This document shows, one piece after another, positions 1-8,312 of a DNA stretch of 64,000 nucleotides. The stretch is from Desulfobacterium sp. GTDB taxonomy: Bacteria; Desulfobacterota; Desulfobacteria; Desulfobacterales; Desulfobacteraceae. A model generated the notes under the pieces. It did no database searches and was not told the origin of the DNA. It saw only the letters and a program-made list of their open reading frames with translations. Every line of letters starts with the position of its first letter. Within the stretch, counting starts at the first letter, position 1. The stretch is taken from assembly GCA_030145245.1 (NCBI GenBank), contig JAQYWC010000067.1:62001-126000 (forward strand). The letters are read 5' to 3'. The translations under genes were made by a program, and so were the position numbers.

Positions 1-456
1 CCCCTCCACACCATGGACAAGATCATGGAGACCTGCCTGGCAAGCCCTGTCATTTCAGCCCAGTGTGATGCCATCCTCTTCTCCGATATCCAGGTGCGCA
101 AGAACATGGTAACGGTCTATGGCGCCGGCGTCCCGTTTCCCGGGGTCAAAGAAAACGAGACCTTTTCCTACAAGGGAACCATTGCCGAGGACATCAACCG
201 CTACGCCCTGGACCACCTGGTGGTGGATGACACCCAGGACAGCATCAAACCCATTGACTGGGCCCTGTTTGTTCCCCGGGGCATCCGCTCCTATTTTGCC
301 ATGCCCTTTTACAGCCGCAAGGTGCTGCGCACCGTGCTGATCCTCTGCTCCACCACCCCCGGCCATTTTGCGGGCAGGAGCACGGATGATTTCCTGCCCA
401 TGTTCCGGACCATCAATACGGCGATCCGGGCCTGGCGACGACACCATCGCCGTTAG
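1..456 (+). CDS. GAF-domain protein, C-terminal part (partial)
   Basis: The frame is open to the first base of the window (Pro-Leu-His-Thr precede the first Met at base 13), so this is most likely the C-terminal end of a longer protein that starts outside. The visible 147 residues look like a GAF sensory domain: a hydrophobic strand-rich core, the segment GIRSYFAMPFY resembling the central GAF strand, then a strand (LRTVLILCSTTPGHF) and a C-terminal helix. The protein ends in a basic tail (RAWRRHHRR). GAF domains bind small ligands or mediate dimerisation in regulators and kinases. The output domain would lie upstream and cannot be seen. The GAF call rests on pattern only. Confidence 0.55.
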   Translation, partial: PLHTMDKIMETCLASPVISAQCDAILFSDIQVRKNMVTVYGAGVPFPGVKENETFSYKGTIAEDINRYALDHLVVDDTQDSIKPIDWALFVPRGIRSYFAMPFYSRKVLRTVLILCSTTPGHFAGRSTDDFLPMFRTINTAIRAWRRHHRR

Positions 457-652: not shown

Positions 653-1375
653 ATGATGCAACGAACGCTGTTAAAACAATTAAAAGTTTTTATCAACGAA
701 CTCGACCTTAAGCCCGGCGACCGCCTTCCTGCCGAACGGACCCTTGCCCAGGAGTTCGGGGTGGGCCGCAACTCCCTGAGACGGCTGCTTCACACCCTGG
801 AAGGCCGGGGGCTGATCCGCATCAAAAAAAGCAGCGGCACCTTTCTCCGGGCCCGTTTTTTCAACCCCACAAGCCTCCCCCTTGATGAGAACACCCAAAA
901 CCCTGAGAAACTGGTGGCAGACCAGCTGGAAACCGCCTTTCTCTTTTTCCCCCTGATGGTGGAGCAGGCCGCCCTTCGCATCAACCCGGCCCAGCTGGAA
1001 GAGTTGCAGAAACGCAACGTTGCCCTGGGCCAGAGCATCTTCTCCAAGGATCCCCACAAGGTGTGGACAGAGAGCCTCTCCTTTTTCAGGCTCGTGGCCT
1101 TTGGCACGAATAACAGTTTCATGGTCGCCATCATGGAACAGATCTGTTCCGTGGATATGGAGCCGTTCAAGCGCTTTTTTGAGATAAACCGGAAAAGACA
1201 GGAACAGCTCTTTGCCGACCATGTCAACATATTGCACGCCCTGAAGGCACACAACCCGGAGGGGGCAAAACAGGTCACCCGGGAATACGTGCTCCACCTG
1301 TGCAAGGTGCTGGGCCCCCAGGTGAATATCCTTCCGGACGCAATCCGGGAACGGCTCAACAAGGAGGCACCATGA
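653..1375 (+). CDS. GntR family transcriptional regulator (FCD-type)
   Basis: This is a 240-aa DNA-binding regulator. The N-terminal winged helix-turn-helix covers about residues 1-68 and carries the GntR signature (PGDRLPAERTLAQEFGVGRN, then SLRRLLHTLEGRGLI and a wing ending SSGTFLR). Residues 85-225 form an all-helical ligand-binding domain that fits the FCD class by length and by its C-terminal helix (DHVNILHALKAHNPEGA). The usual metal-binding D-x-x-x-H of FCD proteins is not obvious, so the effector may be bound differently. The start is ATG 653 behind GAGGAAGG; ATG 656 is also possible. The stop overlaps the next gene as ATGA, so the two are co-translated. A palindrome typical of this subfamily lies upstream. 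The effector is unknown. Confidence 0.9.
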   Translation: MMQRTLLKQLKVFINELDLKPGDRLPAERTLAQEFGVGRNSLRRLLHTLEGRGLIRIKKSSGTFLRARFFNPTSLPLDENTQNPEKLVADQLETAFLFFPLMVEQAALRINPAQLEELQKRNVALGQSIFSKDPHKVWTESLSFFRLVAFGTNNSFMVAIMEQICSVDMEPFKRFFEINRKRQEQLFADHVNILHALKAHNPEGAKQVTREYVLHLCKVLGPQVNILPDAIRERLNKEAP

Positions 1376-1760: not shown

Positions 1761-3179
1761 ATGGAAAGGTTTGGCGAACACTACCTTGAAGAGCGCAAGC
1801 TTGTCAAGAGATGGTCCGGCCCAATCCCCGCACTGGTCAGCCTGTTGCTGACCCTGACGGTTTTTTACGCAACCTGGTGGATCTTCCAGGATCCCCGGGG
1901 CCTCATGCGCATGTACACCCCGTATATCGGATACATGTACTGCCGCTGGTGGCTCATCATGATGATCTGGATGGTCTATATCTTTGACTTCTGGCCCTTT
2001 AAGCGCAAATGGCTCGAGACCGCCCATCCCCTTGTAAAAGGAACCGTGCTGACGCTGATCTCGGTGGCCATTCTCCTGGCCCTTGTCAAAGGATTCTTCG
2101 AAGGATTCTTAGGCAACTACGGCCTGGCCTATTTCAACCCTGAGCAGCTGGAAAAACTTGACGGGATCACCAGCTTTTTTGCCGCTGAATACTCGGCCCT
2201 TGCGATCCTCATGTTTGCCGCCATTGCCTCCTGGCTGTCGCCCGCCTGGGTGGTGGCCATGGAAAACGCCCCCTGGAACAAGATGCCGCAACCGGCCAGG
2301 GGATTCTCCATCCTCACCATCACCTTTTTCCTCTCCACCATTGTCTATTTTGTCACCATGCACCCCCACATGGGCATCCTCTACCACCCCTGGCAATACT
2401 TCACCTCCATTGCCCCGCCCTACTGGGAGAAATTTGCAGACACCGTGTCCGGCAACTTCCACGTCTCCTGGATCATGTGCTGCACCGTGGTGGTATGGCT
2501 GGTTGAGACCATCTGGGAACGCTATCCCTTTAACCTGATCAAAAACAACTGGCTCCGTAGGTTTGCCACCTTTTTCGGTATCATCCTCATTGCGCTGGCC
2601 ATGCATTTCTTCCTCTACTTTGCCCAGGAGCTCACCTGGGGAGAGGCGATCCGGGGCACAAGGCGCGCATTTTCACCGGACTGGCGATGGCTCCACGTGG
2701 GGGAGATGGCCATCTTCTTCCTGGTACCTGCCCTGTTCCTGGCCTTTTACTGCGACAACTGGCCGAAAAAGTTCTCCATGCCGGTGAATGTGGCCACACG
2801 GACCATTGTCTGCCTGGTTGCCGCCGTTGTTCTCTATATTGCCTATTACAAAACCTCCCATCTCTTTCTCGGGACCCAAAAGGGATTTTCCCATCCCCAG
2901 CAGTTCCCCATGATCCCCACCATCTGGCTGATCAACATCTGGCTGGCCCACCACTGGTTCATGGACAACTGGCCGGCCTGGAAGATGGTGCCGAAAACCG
3001 CCCACGAGATCGAGGCAGACCACAACGCCGCCCGGGCCCGGATTGATGACATACGGTTCACCCCGAAATTTGTCACCGGCATTGGCGCAGGCCTTGCCAT
3101 TGGAGTCCTCTTCTATGTTGTGACGGTCTGGGCCCTGCCCGGGTTGTATGAGATCATCGACATTATCCCGAAAAACTAA
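1761..3179 (+). CDS. Polytopic membrane protein, Trp/His-rich, unknown function
   Basis: This is a 472-aa inner-membrane protein with roughly ten hydrophobic segments, the first at about residues 25-42 and the last at about 445-465. It is unusually rich in Trp, His, Tyr and Met around the membrane boundaries, for example MHPHMGILYHPWQYF (about 195-209) and LAHHWFMDNWPAW (about 393-405). Such residues could hold metal or haem, or line a transport path. A strong AGGAGG-type ribosome site (1750-1757) precedes ATG 1761. The MBL-fold gene follows after 20 bp, so the two are very likely one operon. I recognise no characterised family. A transporter or the membrane partner of the periplasmic MBL enzyme are both possible. 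Confidence 0.8.
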   Translation: MERFGEHYLEERKLVKRWSGPIPALVSLLLTLTVFYATWWIFQDPRGLMRMYTPYIGYMYCRWWLIMMIWMVYIFDFWPFKRKWLETAHPLVKGTVLTLISVAILLALVKGFFEGFLGNYGLAYFNPEQLEKLDGITSFFAAEYSALAILMFAAIASWLSPAWVVAMENAPWNKMPQPARGFSILTITFFLSTIVYFVTMHPHMGILYHPWQYFTSIAPPYWEKFADTVSGNFHVSWIMCCTVVVWLVETIWERYPFNLIKNNWLRRFATFFGIILIALAMHFFLYFAQELTWGEAIRGTRRAFSPDWRWLHVGEMAIFFLVPALFLAFYCDNWPKKFSMPVNVATRTIVCLVAAVVLYIAYYKTSHLFLGTQKGFSHPQQFPMIPTIWLINIWLAHHWFMDNWPAWKMVPKTAHEIEADHNAARARIDDIRFTPKFVTGIGAGLAIGVLFYVVTVWALPGLYEIIDIIPKN

Positions 3180-3199: not shown

Positions 3200-4357
3200 A
3201 TGTCTGAGAAACTGAAACGACGTGATTTTCTGAAAGGTGCCATCACAGGCACAGGCATCGGAGTCCTGGGCGCCATGGGAGCCTACTCATACTCCGGAGC
3301 CAGAAAGGCGCTCTTTTCCAAAGCCGAGCGCAACATGACAGATATCGGAACCTGCAAGAGCGTCAAGGTCACCAACATCTCTGAAACCAGCTGGTTTGAC
3401 AACCAGACCCTGGTGGGGGACATCAAAGGCGCAGGCGGCCTTTTGGTAGACCAATATTCCTACAACTGGGCCCCGTTCGGCAACGGTACAGGCCTTGGCA
3501 AAGGCTCCTACGCCGACGGCATTGCCATGATCAAGCAGTACCTGCCCCATGATCTTGACAAGGCATGGGAGATCGCCCAGGCAAACTCGGTCAACCCGGA
3601 CAATGCCGGCGGCTACTCCTGCCTGCTGGAGGTGGAGGAGCTTGACGGCAATAAACGCAAATTTCTCCTGGATTCCGGCTGGTCCTACAAGTGGATGGAT
3701 GAGTGCTTTAAAAGGGAGGGGATCGACAAGATGCTTGAAAACAGGGAGATCGAAGCCCTGTTCATCTCCCACGAGCACTTTGACCACTACTGGGGCCTGC
3801 CCGTAACCATGAAATACGACCCCACCATCACCATCTACATTCCCGAAGGATTCTATCCCGAAGGCAAGCAGTATATCAAGGACGCAGGCCACACGGGCAA
3901 GCTCATTGAGGTGAAGAACGGCCTGTGCAAGCAGATCCCGGGCATGGCAAGCTATGTGTTTCCCATCCCCATCATCTGCCGGGTCTACGGCGAGCAGTCC
4001 CTCTACTTCAACATCAAGGACAAGGGACTTGTCTCGGTGACCGGCTGCTGCCACCAGGGGATCATCCGGTTTGCCGAAACCGCCTACAAGGAGATCAAGT
4101 ATGAAAACGACCAGTGCCACGGCATCTACGGGGGGCTGCACATCTCCCCCTTTGACGACTGGGACCCCAAGTACGACGACCTTGTGATCTCCCTTGAGCG
4201 GTACGGTTTTGAGCGCATCGGCTGCAACCACTGCACAGGCGTTCTCTGTGCCAAGAAGTTCATCAGCGCAGGCTACCCTGTGATCGAAGGAACGGCACGG
4301 TTCCGTTCCAAGGACAAAGCCTACCTGGGCAATGGTGATACCATAACCTTTGGCTAA
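3200..4357 (+). CDS. Tat-exported metallo-beta-lactamase-fold hydrolase
   Basis: This 385-aa protein begins with a clear twin-arginine signal (KRRDFLKG, then a Gly/Ala-rich hydrophobic stretch to about residue 35), so it is predicted to be folded, with metal, before export to the periplasm. The metal-binding motif HEHFDH lies at residues 191-196, followed by further candidate ligands in TGCCHQG (about 285-291), GGLH and CNHCTG. The overall pattern resembles the MBL subgroup named after dihydropterin / RFA-P synthase rather than beta-lactamases. The substrate is unknown. A GGAGAA ribosome site precedes ATG 3200. The adjacent downstream COG0523 GTPase may supply its metal; that link is inference. 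Confidence 0.85.
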   Translation: MSEKLKRRDFLKGAITGTGIGVLGAMGAYSYSGARKALFSKAERNMTDIGTCKSVKVTNISETSWFDNQTLVGDIKGAGGLLVDQYSYNWAPFGNGTGLGKGSYADGIAMIKQYLPHDLDKAWEIAQANSVNPDNAGGYSCLLEVEELDGNKRKFLLDSGWSYKWMDECFKREGIDKMLENREIEALFISHEHFDHYWGLPVTMKYDPTITIYIPEGFYPEGKQYIKDAGHTGKLIEVKNGLCKQIPGMASYVFPIPIICRVYGEQSLYFNIKDKGLVSVTGCCHQGIIRFAETAYKEIKYENDQCHGIYGGLHISPFDDWDPKYDDLVISLERYGFERIGCNHCTGVLCAKKFISAGYPVIEGTARFRSKDKAYLGNGDTITFG

Positions 4358-4423: not shown

Positions 4424-6241
4424 ATGTGTGAAACATCCTCCACAGCCAATTTATCACTGACTGCCCTGCTGCCCCCCTCGGCCCTTGAAGAGCCCAGGGA
4501 GGCAGCCTTTGAACTTGTGCGGGCCGCCCTTGTCCGCGCCAACCAGATCCCGGGGGTCCGCCACCGGTTAGGCTGGTACGGCATCCATGAGGTGGTCACC
4601 CCGGACACCAGGCCCGGCACCCTCACGGCCCGGCTCAATGCCATGCCCGGGGTGTACGGCCTGCTGCCCCTGGACACCTGCCCCGGCCCAAAAGCCTGTT
4701 TTTCCCTCTGCTACTTTCCGGCCCCGGATGAGGAACTCCTGGAATCCTTCTCCATCCAGGCCGGCATAGAAGCCCTGAAACCCGACTTCATGGACAAGGT
4801 CAGAGGGTTTTCCCGCCATCCCGATCTTCTGCCCCTGTTCCATATGGGATTCATCGAGGCCCATATTTCTTCAACGGGGACCGGACCGTTCCTGGCAATG
4901 ACGGCCAGGGATCGCCTGGGCTGGATCTCCGAAACAGGGATTCGTGTCAACACCCCGGACGGAGAGATTGAGGCAGTGGCCCCCGGCGAAAGCGACCAGG
5001 ATCTGGCCGCCCTTGATATTACCATGCCCTTTTTCCGGTCCCTTGCAGCTTCCTTCTCCTACACCCTTTCCACTGCCCCGGACCGGTTTTACACCCAGAA
5101 ACGAGTTGCCGTCCTGCCGTCCCTCCTATGCCATGCCACCCTGGAACACCGGTTGACCCTGGGATATTTTACGGACAATGCCCAACCCACGGGTTTTGAC
5201 TGGGAGGAATCAAAAGAGATCGCCTGGACCCATGGAAATCCCCTGCCCGAACCCTATCAAGACGAGTCCTGGTGGAGCCCCCATCTGCCAGGGGCCCAAA
5301 ACAGCCTTGACAAGCGGGCCATGGGAATCACGGACAAGCCAAGATTCATCCTGCTCACCGGCTTCCTGGGGACGGGCAAAACCACCTTTCTCGACCACTT
5401 CATCCAGGCCCAGACCGCCAACAACAGCTTTGTTGCGGTGGTGCAGAACGAGATCGGGCAAAAGGGCCTGGACGCAACGCTTCTGGACGAAACCTATGCC
5501 GTCACCCAGATGGATGAAGGGTGTGTCTGCTGCTCCCTTGCCGGCAACCTGCGCGCGGCCCTGTCCGATATCATGGACCGGTTCCAGCCCGACTTTGTGG
5601 TGCTTGAAACCACCGGCCTTGCCAATCCGGCCAACATTCTCAGGGAGATAGACGACCTCTCCGACCTGCTTGAGTTCGGCTCCGTCACCACCCTCATGGA
5701 CAGCCTGGCAGCAGAACAGACCCTGGAACGCTTTGAGGTGGCCCGGGACCAGGTGCGGCTGGCCGATGTGATTTTGCTCAACAAGTGTGACCTTGCCCCT
5801 CCCCATGCCATTGAACGCCTGGAACAGCGCATCAGCGGGCTCAATCCCGTGGCGGCCATCCACAAAACCTGCCACGGGGAGATCCACCCGGCCGCCCTCT
5901 ATGGGATCAATTTCCGGAATCCGCCCAACCGTCCCCTGTTCAACGGCCTTGGGAACAGTTTAAAAGCAACCCACCGGGATGACAGGATCGAGACCCGGCT
6001 GATGGAGTTTTCAGCCCCCCTGGACAAGGAGGTCCTTATAACCGCCATTGAAGCCGGGGGAGAGAAGATCCTGAGGGTCAAGGGCATTGTGGAATTCAAC
6101 AATATACAAGGCCCCATGGTGTTCCAGTATTCACCCGGCACCTGTAATATTTCACCCCTTCAGGCCAAGGATACCCATGAACGCTTTCTTGTGGTTATCG
6201 GTCAAGACCTGGACAGGAGTTTTAACGAAGATTTCGATTAA
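4424..6241 (+). CDS. CobW/COG0523-family GTPase with a novel N-terminal domain
   Basis: This is a 605-aa protein, far longer than ordinary COG0523 GTPases (about 300-400 aa). From about residue 305 it has the family hallmarks: P-loop GFLGTGKTT (313-321), VVQNEIGQ, the metal-binding CxCC motif as CVCC (367-370), the switch segment VLETTGLANPA, and the guanine-specificity motif NKCD. A short C-terminal CobW_C-like region follows. Family members are metallochaperones that use GTP hydrolysis to deliver Zn, Co or Fe. The first ~300 residues match nothing I recognise; they contain FHMGFIEAHISS and Cys residues, and may be the client- or metal-handling part. The ribosome site is weak. It sits between the Tat MBL enzyme and the chemoreceptor gene. 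Confidence 0.85.
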   Translation: MCETSSTANLSLTALLPPSALEEPREAAFELVRAALVRANQIPGVRHRLGWYGIHEVVTPDTRPGTLTARLNAMPGVYGLLPLDTCPGPKACFSLCYFPAPDEELLESFSIQAGIEALKPDFMDKVRGFSRHPDLLPLFHMGFIEAHISSTGTGPFLAMTARDRLGWISETGIRVNTPDGEIEAVAPGESDQDLAALDITMPFFRSLAASFSYTLSTAPDRFYTQKRVAVLPSLLCHATLEHRLTLGYFTDNAQPTGFDWEESKEIAWTHGNPLPEPYQDESWWSPHLPGAQNSLDKRAMGITDKPRFILLTGFLGTGKTTFLDHFIQAQTANNSFVAVVQNEIGQKGLDATLLDETYAVTQMDEGCVCCSLAGNLRAALSDIMDRFQPDFVVLETTGLANPANILREIDDLSDLLEFGSVTTLMDSLAAEQTLERFEVARDQVRLADVILLNKCDLAPPHAIERLEQRISGLNPVAAIHKTCHGEIHPAALYGINFRNPPNRPLFNGLGNSLKATHRDDRIETRLMEFSAPLDKEVLITAIEAGGEKILRVKGIVEFNNIQGPMVFQYSPGTCNISPLQAKDTHERFLVVIGQDLDRSFNEDFD

Positions 6242-6260: not shown

Positions 6261-8312
6261 ATGAAGAACAAACAAAAAACCCGCATCTCATTTCGGTTCA
6301 TCAAATGGACCGCCCCCCTGCTGTTCCTGTTTCTTTCGGCCCTGACCATCACCATCTACGGGGTTGAAAAGAAGAACCAGGAAAAAGCCCTGATCAATGT
6401 GGGCCACCAGGCCACAAAACAGACCGGCATTGCCCTTGAAAACTGGATCGCGGACCAGGTGCGGATCGCCAGGATGGTCGCAGCAGACCAGCGGGTGATC
6501 AGGGCGTGTGAGCATCCTGACAACAACGAGTATGTGGCAGCGGCACAACAATATACCAAGAGTATTCACCAGCGGTTTCCCTTCTATGAAAACCTGCCCC
6601 TTGTATCGAAAATGGCCCCGGGCGCGTCGGTCACGGTCCGGGTCGGCAACCAGGACCGCACCGTGGGTGACGGCCAGTTCTTCACGGACACGGTGGAGGG
6701 AAAGACCATCGGAAAATGCAGTCCCAAGGCAAGCTTTATCAAGGCGATCTATGGAGGAAAACCATACTTCATCAGCCAGGTCTACCCCAGCATCCTCAGG
6801 GGAAATCCCATTTTCGTCATCTCAGCTCCAGTGAAAAACAGCCGGGGCGACCTGGTGGGCGTGGCCCTGATAGCACCCCAGATGAGCTATTTCACCGACC
6901 TATTTGTCAACTCCGTCACCGTGGGCAAGACAGGCCACCTCTTTTTTGTGGACGACCGGGGCATGGTCCTTGCCCATCCCGACCCGAAACTCATCCTCAA
7001 CAAAGAGATGGGATCAACCTTTTCCCCCATAACCACACAGGTGTTTAACGGAGCCACCCGCTTTACAGCAACGTTCCAGGGCAACGAGCGCAGTTACATC
7101 TCCCGCAGGATCGATCTGCCCGAAGATAAACTCCTCCACAAATGGTACATGGTGTTTTCCCAGGACCGGGAAGAGATCCTCGCGACCTCCAGGCATTTCC
7201 TGACCCTGCTTGCCGGCGCAAGCGCTCTGTTTCTTGTCTGCTTCGGGGCAGGTTTCTTTATCCTGTGCCGCATCATCGTTGAGAAACCGGTAAACCAGGC
7301 CGTTGCAGCTCTCAAGGACATTGCCCAGGGCGAAGGGGATCTGACCAAACGGATCGAGATCAACGCAACCGATGAGATCGGTGAGCTTGCCGGATGGTTC
7401 AACACCTTTCTTGAAAAGCTCCAGAACATCATCCAACAGCTGGGGGAACACTCCACCCAGGTGGATCTCTCCTCAGCCAAGCTGTCGGAGATCGCCGCCC
7501 AGATGGCAACCGAGGCCGATGCCACCAAGACCCGGGCCGGCACGATCTCCAACGCCACAGAAGAGATGAGTGAACGATTCCAGGGGGCCGCCCACACCAC
7601 CACCCAGGCCTCGGACAATGTGGCCATGGTGGCAACGGCAGCCGAGCAGATGACAGCCACCATCAATGAGATCGCAAAGAACGCCCAGAACGCATCCACC
7701 ATCACCAACCGGGCCGTGGTCAAAGCGTCCGATGCCAATGCCCAGATAGAATCCCTGGGCCAGGCAGCCCACTCCATCGGCAAGGTGGTGGAGACCATTG
7801 CGGACATCTCCGATCAGGTGAACCTGCTCGCCCTGAATGCCACCATCGAAGCAGCCCGGGCCGGAGAAGCCGGCAAGGGATTTGCTGTTGTGGCCAATGA
7901 GATCAAGGACCTTGCCAACCAGACGGCCAGCGCCACCCTGGAGATAAAGCTCAACATCGACAACATCCAGAGTTCAACCGACGGCACCGTTCAAGGGATC
8001 ACCGAGATCAGCCAGACCATCAGCGATGTAAACACCCTTGTGGCCACCATTGCAACGGCCGTGGAGGAGCAGTCCTCGGCCACCAAAGAGATAGCCGACA
8101 ACATCTCCCAGGCCTCCCAGGGCATCCAGGAGGTGAACGACACCGTGGGCCAGAGCGTCATCCAGGCCTCAGACATTGCCAGGCACACCTCCTCGGGCAC
8201 CATGGCCGCAGCAGAGATCTCCTCCAGCAGCAACCAGGTCAAGACCAACGCAGGAGAGCTCCAGACCATGGCCGGAAGGCTCAACGCCATTGTGGGCAGC
8301 TTCAGGGTATAG
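6261..8312 (+). CDS. Methyl-accepting chemotaxis protein with periplasmic Cache domain
   Basis: This is a 683-aa transmembrane chemoreceptor. The start is ATG 6261, 19 bp after the previous stop; a longer open frame runs upstream into the CobW gene but is a shadow. The order is: N-terminal TM (about 13-31), a large periplasmic dCache-like sensor (about 35-310), a second TM (about 315-340, ALFLVCFGAGFFIL), HAMP (about 345-395), and the cytoplasmic helical signalling domain. The conserved hairpin tip is at about 521-552 (NLLALNATIEAARAGEAGKG). It should signal to CheA/CheW, none of which are in the window. No CheR-docking pentapeptide is seen at the C-terminus. The ligand is unknown; the neighbours suggest the substrate handled by the surrounding genes. 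Confidence 0.93.
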   Translation: MKNKQKTRISFRFIKWTAPLLFLFLSALTITIYGVEKKNQEKALINVGHQATKQTGIALENWIADQVRIARMVAADQRVIRACEHPDNNEYVAAAQQYTKSIHQRFPFYENLPLVSKMAPGASVTVRVGNQDRTVGDGQFFTDTVEGKTIGKCSPKASFIKAIYGGKPYFISQVYPSILRGNPIFVISAPVKNSRGDLVGVALIAPQMSYFTDLFVNSVTVGKTGHLFFVDDRGMVLAHPDPKLILNKEMGSTFSPITTQVFNGATRFTATFQGNERSYISRRIDLPEDKLLHKWYMVFSQDREEILATSRHFLTLLAGASALFLVCFGAGFFILCRIIVEKPVNQAVAALKDIAQGEGDLTKRIEINATDEIGELAGWFNTFLEKLQNIIQQLGEHSTQVDLSSAKLSEIAAQMATEADATKTRAGTISNATEEMSERFQGAAHTTTQASDNVAMVATAAEQMTATINEIAKNAQNASTITNRAVVKASDANAQIESLGQAAHSIGKVVETIADISDQVNLLALNATIEAARAGEAGKGFAVVANEIKDLANQTASATLEIKLNIDNIQSSTDGTVQGITEISQTISDVNTLVATIATAVEEQSSATKEIADNISQASQGIQEVNDTVGQSVIQASDIARHTSSGTMAAAEISSSSNQVKTNAGELQTMAGRLNAIVGSFRV

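Follow-up and report, generated by a model that had tools for sequence, protein, structure and literature searches.

We analyzed a 64,000-nucleotide stretch of DNA (hereafter, the window) from the sulfate-reducing bacterium Desulfobacterium sp., in which an open reading frame on the forward strand (4424-6241) encodes a protein of 605 amino acid residues. Residues 1-301 (4424..5326, +) make up an N-terminal domain (NTD) that is unnamed in the libraries we searched and homologous to stand-alone proteins; its WW motif (residues 283-284; 5270..5275, +) is the final conserved point ahead of the metal module in both the fused and the stand-alone forms. The remainder comprises a CobW/COG0523 GTPase domain (PF02492; residues 309-479; 5348..5860, +; Pfam E 2.4e-38), with the P-loop TGFLGTGKT (residues 312-320; 5357..5383, +) and the CXCC metal motif in the form CVCC (residues 367-370; 5522..5533, +) read from its sequence, and a CobW_C domain (PF07683; residues 523-599; 5990..6220, +; Pfam E 2.1e-11).

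Two genes on the same strand precede the fusion gene. The first encodes a polytopic membrane protein of 472 residues and approximately 10 helices, which we call MEM (1761..3179, +; alignment A4) and for which no Pfam or NCBIfam family scored above its cut-off. The second encodes MBL, a metallo-beta-lactamase-fold protein of 385 residues (3200..4357, +; PF00753, 27.9 bits against a cut-off of 22.7; alignment A5). The intergenic gaps are 20 bp between MEM and MBL and 66 bp between MBL and the fusion. Upstream of this cluster lie a GntR/FCD regulator gene (653..1375, +; PF00392, PF07729) and the C-terminal portion of a PAS-like sensor whose start is outside the window (13..456, +). The latter was recognized with a profile from L012:631-2043 and L015 (L numbers denote loci, G numbers genomes); the L012 copy gives four PAS-type Pfam matches, every one below cut-off. 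On the other side, a dCache/HAMP chemoreceptor gene (6261-8312) starts approximately 20 bp 3′ of the fusion, and it does likewise in L012.

The GTPase part has the features of its family. The window protein scores 132 bits against PF02492 (cut-off 20.7) and 44 bits against PF07683 (cut-off 22), and both Walker A (GFLGTGKT) and the guanine motif (NKCD) are present, together with a CXCC read as GCVCC at residues 366-370. Among the 32 fused ORFs that we tabulated, the window's own included, GCxCC occurs in the GTPase of 31 and NKx[DE] in 30, the misses for the latter being L066 and the contig-cut L087. Against PDB sequences, E. coli YjiA gave the sole matches to this part (best E 4e-29). By its sequence, then, the GTPase belongs to COG0523, and its motifs are intact. 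It shares the P-loop, CXCC, NKxD and CobW_C with the COG0523/CobW subfamily of G3E GTPases (YjiA, CobW, ZigA and the nitrile hydratase activator), but differs from them in having some 300 residues ahead of the GTPase. It also falls far below the equivalog cut-offs of CobW (TIGR02475; 96.4 bits vs 332.1), of the zinc metallochaperone ZigA (NF038288; 74.7 vs 600) and of NF008578/PRK11537 (123.3 vs 361), a model titled just 'GTPase' that we take to be the YjiA type, and, unlike those three, it is tied to a membrane/MBL cluster.

We regard the 605-residue ORF, from sequence comparison, as a conserved fusion and no chance open frame, because a same-genus copy (L012, Desulfobacterium sp. MAG9) is 85% identical across residues 1-301, because the changes between the two fall on codon positions in a coding pattern with a low dN/dS, and because 32 fused ORFs exist. 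In the NTD, the window and L012 differ by 36, 20 and 65 changes at codon positions 1, 2 and 3, with a dN/dS of 0.23, indicating that this part of the gene is under purifying selection; MEM (0.09) and MBL (0.07) are both tighter than the NTD. The fusion architecture occurs a second time in the same genome, on contig 75, at 26% identity.

The initial annotation had put the start of the P-loop at residue 313, had recognized nothing in the residues before it, and had proposed that a profile search and a structure prediction be applied to them. The G of TGFLGTGKT indeed sits at 313, and the domain bounds suggested at that time, 4424-5335, hold to about 10 residues. For residues 1-305, neither Pfam nor NCBIfam returned a family at E<=10, and a search of PDB sequences gave one match (E 1.1), which is not credible; a 43-row NTD profile (A3) had no PDB match at E<=5. 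AlphaFold2 predicted a confident, globular, mixed alpha/beta structure (mean pLDDT 87.5, pTM 0.88), whose best Foldseek match of any kind against the PDB had an E of 0.074. The best VIA-align result, the START/Bet v 1 helix-grip fold (Z 4.6, rmsd 4.2, 131 aligned), is under that tool's noise level. Thus, Pfam, NCBIfam, PDB sequences, Foldseek and VIA-align assigned residues 1-305 to no known family. PADLOC likewise gave no family at E<=0.01 for the fusion, MEM, MBL or one stand-alone NTD. The domain is real and conserved, and it is absent from the libraries searched.

We considered whether the NTD could be an enzyme or bear a metal site of its own. No Cys or His is conserved across the 43 rows of A3, which argues against both, and the ten invariant columns of 23 fused NTD rows include neither residue. 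Variable and without a conserved Cys or His in A3, the NTD looks like a binding part; E83 and D93 may nevertheless have a role in the stand-alone form, as both are invariant in 20 stand-alone copies. The WW motif is invariant in the 4 rows of alignment A2, and in A6 (20 stand-alone rows) the first W is invariant and the second nearly so. Among ORFs, WW is present in 24/33 fused and 33/35 complete stand-alone ones.

All genome-sample searches covered the window's own phylum. We searched the 4-row NTD profile A2 in 389 genomes of the class and 395 of the phylum, samples that overlap, and it matched in 43 and 19 genomes, respectively. Strong matches were mostly fusions of approximately 600-740 residues, and weaker ones were separate proteins of approximately 300-370 residues. 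A profile-profile comparison of 23 fused with 20 stand-alone rows gave 99.9% and E 1.3e-32 over 241 columns; on this ground the two forms of the NTD are one family by sequence. A contig scan by exact peptide patterns, which reaches close relatives only, found 1 locus, and neither MEM nor the NTD had a match in the plasmid collection PLSDB. An in-frame TGA was flagged as a selenocysteine candidate in genome G268; the ORF in L068 opens without that TGA. PMC9312934 lists a CobW-like selenoprotein with UxxC.

The stand-alone NTD had been expected beside lone CobW genes. A CobW profile made from three fused copies recognized no CobW ORF in the approximately 3.5-13 kb around the stand-alone copies, which instead sit beside homologs of MEM and MBL. 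The linkage holds from both directions. The MEM profile A4 matched 65/389 class genomes and 23/395 phylum genomes at E<=1e-5; with close MEM copies defined by A4 E<=6.1e-92, the class sample had 56 places and the phylum sample contributed another 14, and the NTD is on the same contig for 68 of these 70. The two exceptions are G363, whose contig ends 237 bp past MEM, and G510, where MEM and the NTD are on two contig ends. Starting from the NTD, the A2 matches of both samples together comprise 27 stand-alone and 38 fused copies. MEM adjoins 26 of the former, the 27th (G282:C559) being a stop-containing fragment of 84 residues at the end of a contig, with no MEM in the 3 kb read, and it shares the contig with 32 of the latter. 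Of the six fused misses, G371 and G541 have the gene at a contig edge, with MEM and MBL not found elsewhere in those genomes, and G510 and G347 have MEM on another contig, MBL adjoining the fusion in G347. In G615 and G259 the gene lies well inside its contig, and searches of these genomes yielded no MEM and no MBL. The G615 gene (L089:6408-8375) has kept the P-loop and lost CXCC; in G259 (L155:6580-8438) the NTD and the GTPase are in two separate frames, with a DsrC-like gene adjoining. Such damaged copies fit a protein that is superfluous without MEM and MBL. However, in a draft contig of G249 (L158) the GTPase frame is broken despite the MEM and MBL pieces there, so the breaks may be draft errors.

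Gene order separates the two forms. It is MBL-MEM-NTD in 37/37 stand-alone loci with all three genes, to which L159 adds one, and MEM-MBL-NTD:GTPase in 28/29 fused loci with all three, the remaining one being divergent and L156 adding one; these counts are not all independent, as the pairs L080/L081, L102/L141 and L100/L110 are nearly identical. The genomic evidence gives good support to the membership of the NTD in a MEM-MBL system. It also bears on the idea that the window protein is a general COG0523 zinc-shortage protein, placed in the cluster incidentally and with an NTD unlinked to MEM or MBL. Its ordinary GTPase motifs would suit that role, but the adjacency of MEM to nearly every stand-alone copy found by the NTD profile alone, and the CobW, ZigA and YjiA equivalog cut-offs that it fails to reach, make this very improbable. 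The suggestion that a fused domain may identify the client protein or the metal was borne out in part: the client is narrowed to the MEM-MBL cluster, and neither a single protein nor the metal is given.

MBL belongs to the metallo-beta-lactamase superfamily by its Lactamase_B score and its HxHxDH motif, which is conserved along with GCCH, GGLH and CNHCTG. Over the 18 rows of A5, H191, H193, D195 and H196 are invariant, and the conserved site further includes C283/C284/H285, H314 and C342/H344/C345. The MBL profile matched PDB entries 7dck (E 1.1e-17) and 2p4z (E 1.8e-14), the latter a superfamily II metal-dependent hydrolase of a type that presumably corresponds to COG1237. MBL differs from the 2p4z hydrolases in its Tat-like N-terminus: it begins with KRRDFLKG (an RRxFLK pattern), and R7, R8, F10 and K12 are nearly invariant in A5. 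The Tat models score below cut-off on MBL (13.9 vs 22.7 in Pfam, 14.3 vs 16.7 in NCBIfam), and we read this N-terminus, from its sequence, as a putative Tat signal.

MEM is invariant at E143, H201, R309 and H312 over the 41 rows of A4, and nearly so at H203. Its model is mostly helical (pLDDT 85.1). As regards NrfD/ActC quinone-linked membrane subunits, three alternative complex III chains came out on top of the Foldseek search, at E 0.04 with TM <0.2; no such chain is among the best 50 VIA-align rows. Nothing significant thus identified MEM as a known transporter or an NrfD-type protein, and a missing match proves nothing. The window MEM has W/Y/A-P loops at residues 78, 170, 255, 334 and 404, a spacing of approximately 70-90 residues, and may be composed of repeated two-helix units. 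It is 97% identical to the MEM of the same-genus L012; the next copy, at 93%, is L084 (G474, outside the class), above the copies of its own family, and its history perhaps includes a transfer.

A distant MEM branch (A4 E 2e-43 to 4e-13; profile match to A4 99.8%) was read at 16 loci (L109:6880-8112, L121-L129, L143, L144, L147, L148, L150 and L151), after exclusion of partial close copies (among them G249, G347, G411 and the second G360 piece). None of the 16 has an NTD, and 13 have acyl-CoA synthetase genes. The window's genome has one distant MEM (L109, on contig 61), with no synthetase in the ORFs of it that were read. H312 is common to MEM and the distant branch; the HxH pair H201/H203 is not.

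The difference between the fused and stand-alone forms is concentrated behind the WW motif. Stand-alone NTD proteins end shortly past it; their Cys/His tails read, for example, SSCGCH, CCYHDH, CSCFHDH, CACYKDH, CGCEHC or CGCTHDHH. CxC or CC occurs within the final 45 residues of 35/38 stand-alone ORFs (33/35 in the main set, plus L145 and L159 with it and L146 without), and within the 45 residues preceding the GTPase of 0/32 fused ORFs. In two of the three without, L110 and L113, a contig end truncates the ORF; the third, L146, has one terminal Cys. The 38 stand-alone loci are 37 of those labeled so at first plus L159; L152 (G411), with an ORF likewise truncated by the end of its contig, was moved to the fused set, as its other half, L161, contains the GTPase. 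The tail and the GTPase are thus complementary. In the f110 copies and in L088, the GTPase is present and WW absent.

A MEM tree (82 rows, IQ-TREE, LG+C20, L012 left out, rooted by the distant MEM rows) places the fused (28), stand-alone (37) and distant (15) rows each on one side of a branch, with values of 100/100, 99/96 and 100/100, respectively. The unlabeled rows L111 and L153 fall within these groups. We retained the long-branch rows L146, L135, L099 and L145; the tool warns of meeting long branches. The tree needs two changes in all, the minimum, and the fused copies form a single branch, so that, judged from this tree, one fusion event suffices. Since the fused and stand-alone copies are sister groups, the tree does not give the order of the two forms.

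Several accessory genes accompany the cluster; their counts are lower bounds, because the stretches differ in length. A protein of approximately 90 residues with a conserved SYESSYALTLAYPD stretch and no Pfam family is encoded at 36/38 stand-alone loci (for example, L095:5686-5958, L101:6181-6462 and L117:6142-6417), missing at L110 (contig end) and L146. Its gene is mostly between MEM and the NTD; nine copies, with low scores of 26-47 bits, are directly behind the NTD. It is also found at three fused loci, L086 (5144-5455), L087 and L152, and its retention there would fit the tail form having come first. A gene for a Nitro_FeMo-Co (NifX-type) protein is near 14 stand-alone and 4/32 fused copies. 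Of these 14 genes, 13 are on the same strand and within 250 bp of the NTD or overlapping its end (as at L094:6864-7220, L095:6974-7330 and L117:7439-7786, directly behind it), and the 14th abuts MBL; 5/6 scanned proteins were above the Pfam cut-off. It is another metal-handling neighbor of the stand-alone NTD.

A small, exported-looking cytochrome c bearing a single CxxCH (CLGCHDSVADPEKPGRTRDDWH, for example) is encoded at 19/38 stand-alone loci and at L111 (examples, among others, are L096:2641-2982, L112:4280-4618, L132:3400-3735 and L159:2662-3000). Its gene is mostly approximately 50 bp ahead of the MBL gene, and its Pfam cytochrome matches are below cut-off. Given this cytochrome, the cluster may have a role in electron transfer. 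DsrC works through a Cys arm, and DsrC-like genes lie just ahead of NTD:GTPase at 3/32 fused loci (L072:7355-8014, L085:5572-6261 and L078), as well as at L155 (5904-6563) and L158 (2193-2852). The cluster might be seen as a redox or sulfur relay, in which the mobile Cys tail of the stand-alone NTD would make it a thiol carrier, acting in the manner of DsrC's Cys arm and exchanging electrons or sulfur with MEM; in the fused lineage a different protein would have taken over that job, leaving the GTPase as a regulator. Tails with CxC or vicinal CC close to the C-terminus, the cytochrome genes, and the DsrC-like genes beside fused copies that have no tail would be in keeping with such a relay. 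We nevertheless consider it unlikely: it does not account for the presence, in the position of the tail, of a CXCC-bearing GTPase from a metal-delivery family; DsrC neighbors are few; and several tails are also His-rich (CCYHDH, CGCTHDHH), favoring metal.

The regulators also differ between the forms. GntR genes occur at 16/32 fused vs 5/38 stand-alone loci, PAS-like sensor genes at 16/32 vs 3/38, and sigma-54 activators at 5/32 vs 19/38, the 38 stand-alone loci of these counts including L152, which is in fact fused. These data bear on a further possibility, metal uptake or sensing, in which MEM would move a metal or a metal complex, the exported MBL would process it outside, and the NTD with its tail or GTPase would be the cytosolic acceptor. 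It would share the anatomy of the cluster, with a cytosolic partner bearing a thiol module and with NifX-type neighbors; but the regulators observed are of GntR/FCD, PAS-like and sigma-54 types, and the frequent acyl-CoA synthetase genes in the distant MEM stretches do not suggest metal transport. We consider it slightly less probable than the relay.

The explanation that we favor, at slightly under even chances, is that the 605-residue protein is a dedicated metal-loading assembly factor of the co-encoded MEM-MBL system. The NTD would be its docking part, recognizing MEM or pre-export MBL on the cytoplasmic side, and the C-terminal module would be its metal carrier. In stand-alone copies, that carrier would be the short Cys/His tail behind WW. 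In one lineage, including the window, a COG0523 GTPase would occupy the tail's place, with CXCC holding the metal and the GTP cycle driving its release. The thiol module would then pass the metal on to MEM or MBL. Several points speak against this explanation: a CxC tail can also serve as a redox thiol or carry sulfur; L146 has one terminal Cys, and the f110 copies and L088 have no WW; six fused NTD copies are without MEM on their contig; the HxH pair of MEM is absent from its distant branch; and co-evolution singles out no client in the fused group.

MBL is a natural candidate client: it has a metal-binding fold and a conserved site, and Tat substrates fold and receive their metal before they are exported. 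MEM is the other candidate. In 33 stand-alone loci, a distance-based co-evolution analysis gave partial correlations of 0.50 for NTD-MEM and 0.07 for NTD-MBL, so that NTD divergence tracks MEM over MBL; in 26 fused loci the values were 0.39 and 0.37, with neither ahead. The analysis omitted L012, L080, L110, L113, L141, any locus lacking one of the three genes, and NTD rows of <=180 residues, and it provides a lead only, since the pairs are not independent. As to the metal, zinc would be our first guess, because, according to its title, PMC7895991 reports that CobW-related proteins prefer zinc.

Dedicated service to one client has counterparts among G3E systems. The nitrile hydratase activator, UreG together with its urease partners, and HypB are GTPases that serve one metalloenzyme with accessory proteins. 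The presumed client here differs in being a membrane/exported set, and a tail and a GTPase share one place on one scaffold. PMC12891040 concerns a Chlamydomonas CobW/WW-domain factor, likewise a CobW-type protein named with another domain; that factor is eukaryotic and nuclear, and 'WW' in our protein is a two-residue motif only. The words 'fusion' and 'fused' do not occur in the main text of Haas et al. 2009 (PMC2770081), and among the matches listed no open-access title concerned the MEM-MBL-NTD cluster.

Taken as a whole, the window protein is a COG0523 protein tied to a presumed client system, and its putative metal module has a tail-type counterpart. With more reserve, we propose as a possible wider reading, though a somewhat doubtful one, that sulfate reducers have an undescribed cell-envelope system in which an exported MBL-fold protein and MEM, partly with a cytochrome c and the approximately 90-residue partner, are served by a cytosolic assembly factor that comes either with a Cys/His tail or, in the tail's position, with a GTP-driven metallochaperone. 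The MEM-MBL cluster, whose core has no Pfam name, is not rare in the class, as the 56 places of close MEM copies in the 389-genome sample indicate. To our knowledge, the client of many COG0523 GTPases is not known. The fused NTD links this GTPase to a short list of candidate partners, and related species offer a matched NTD form without the GTPase, so that the client, the metal and the contribution of the GTPase become directly testable. If the proposed explanation is true, the two forms would be a natural with/without pair for what a COG0523 GTPase contributes to metal delivery.
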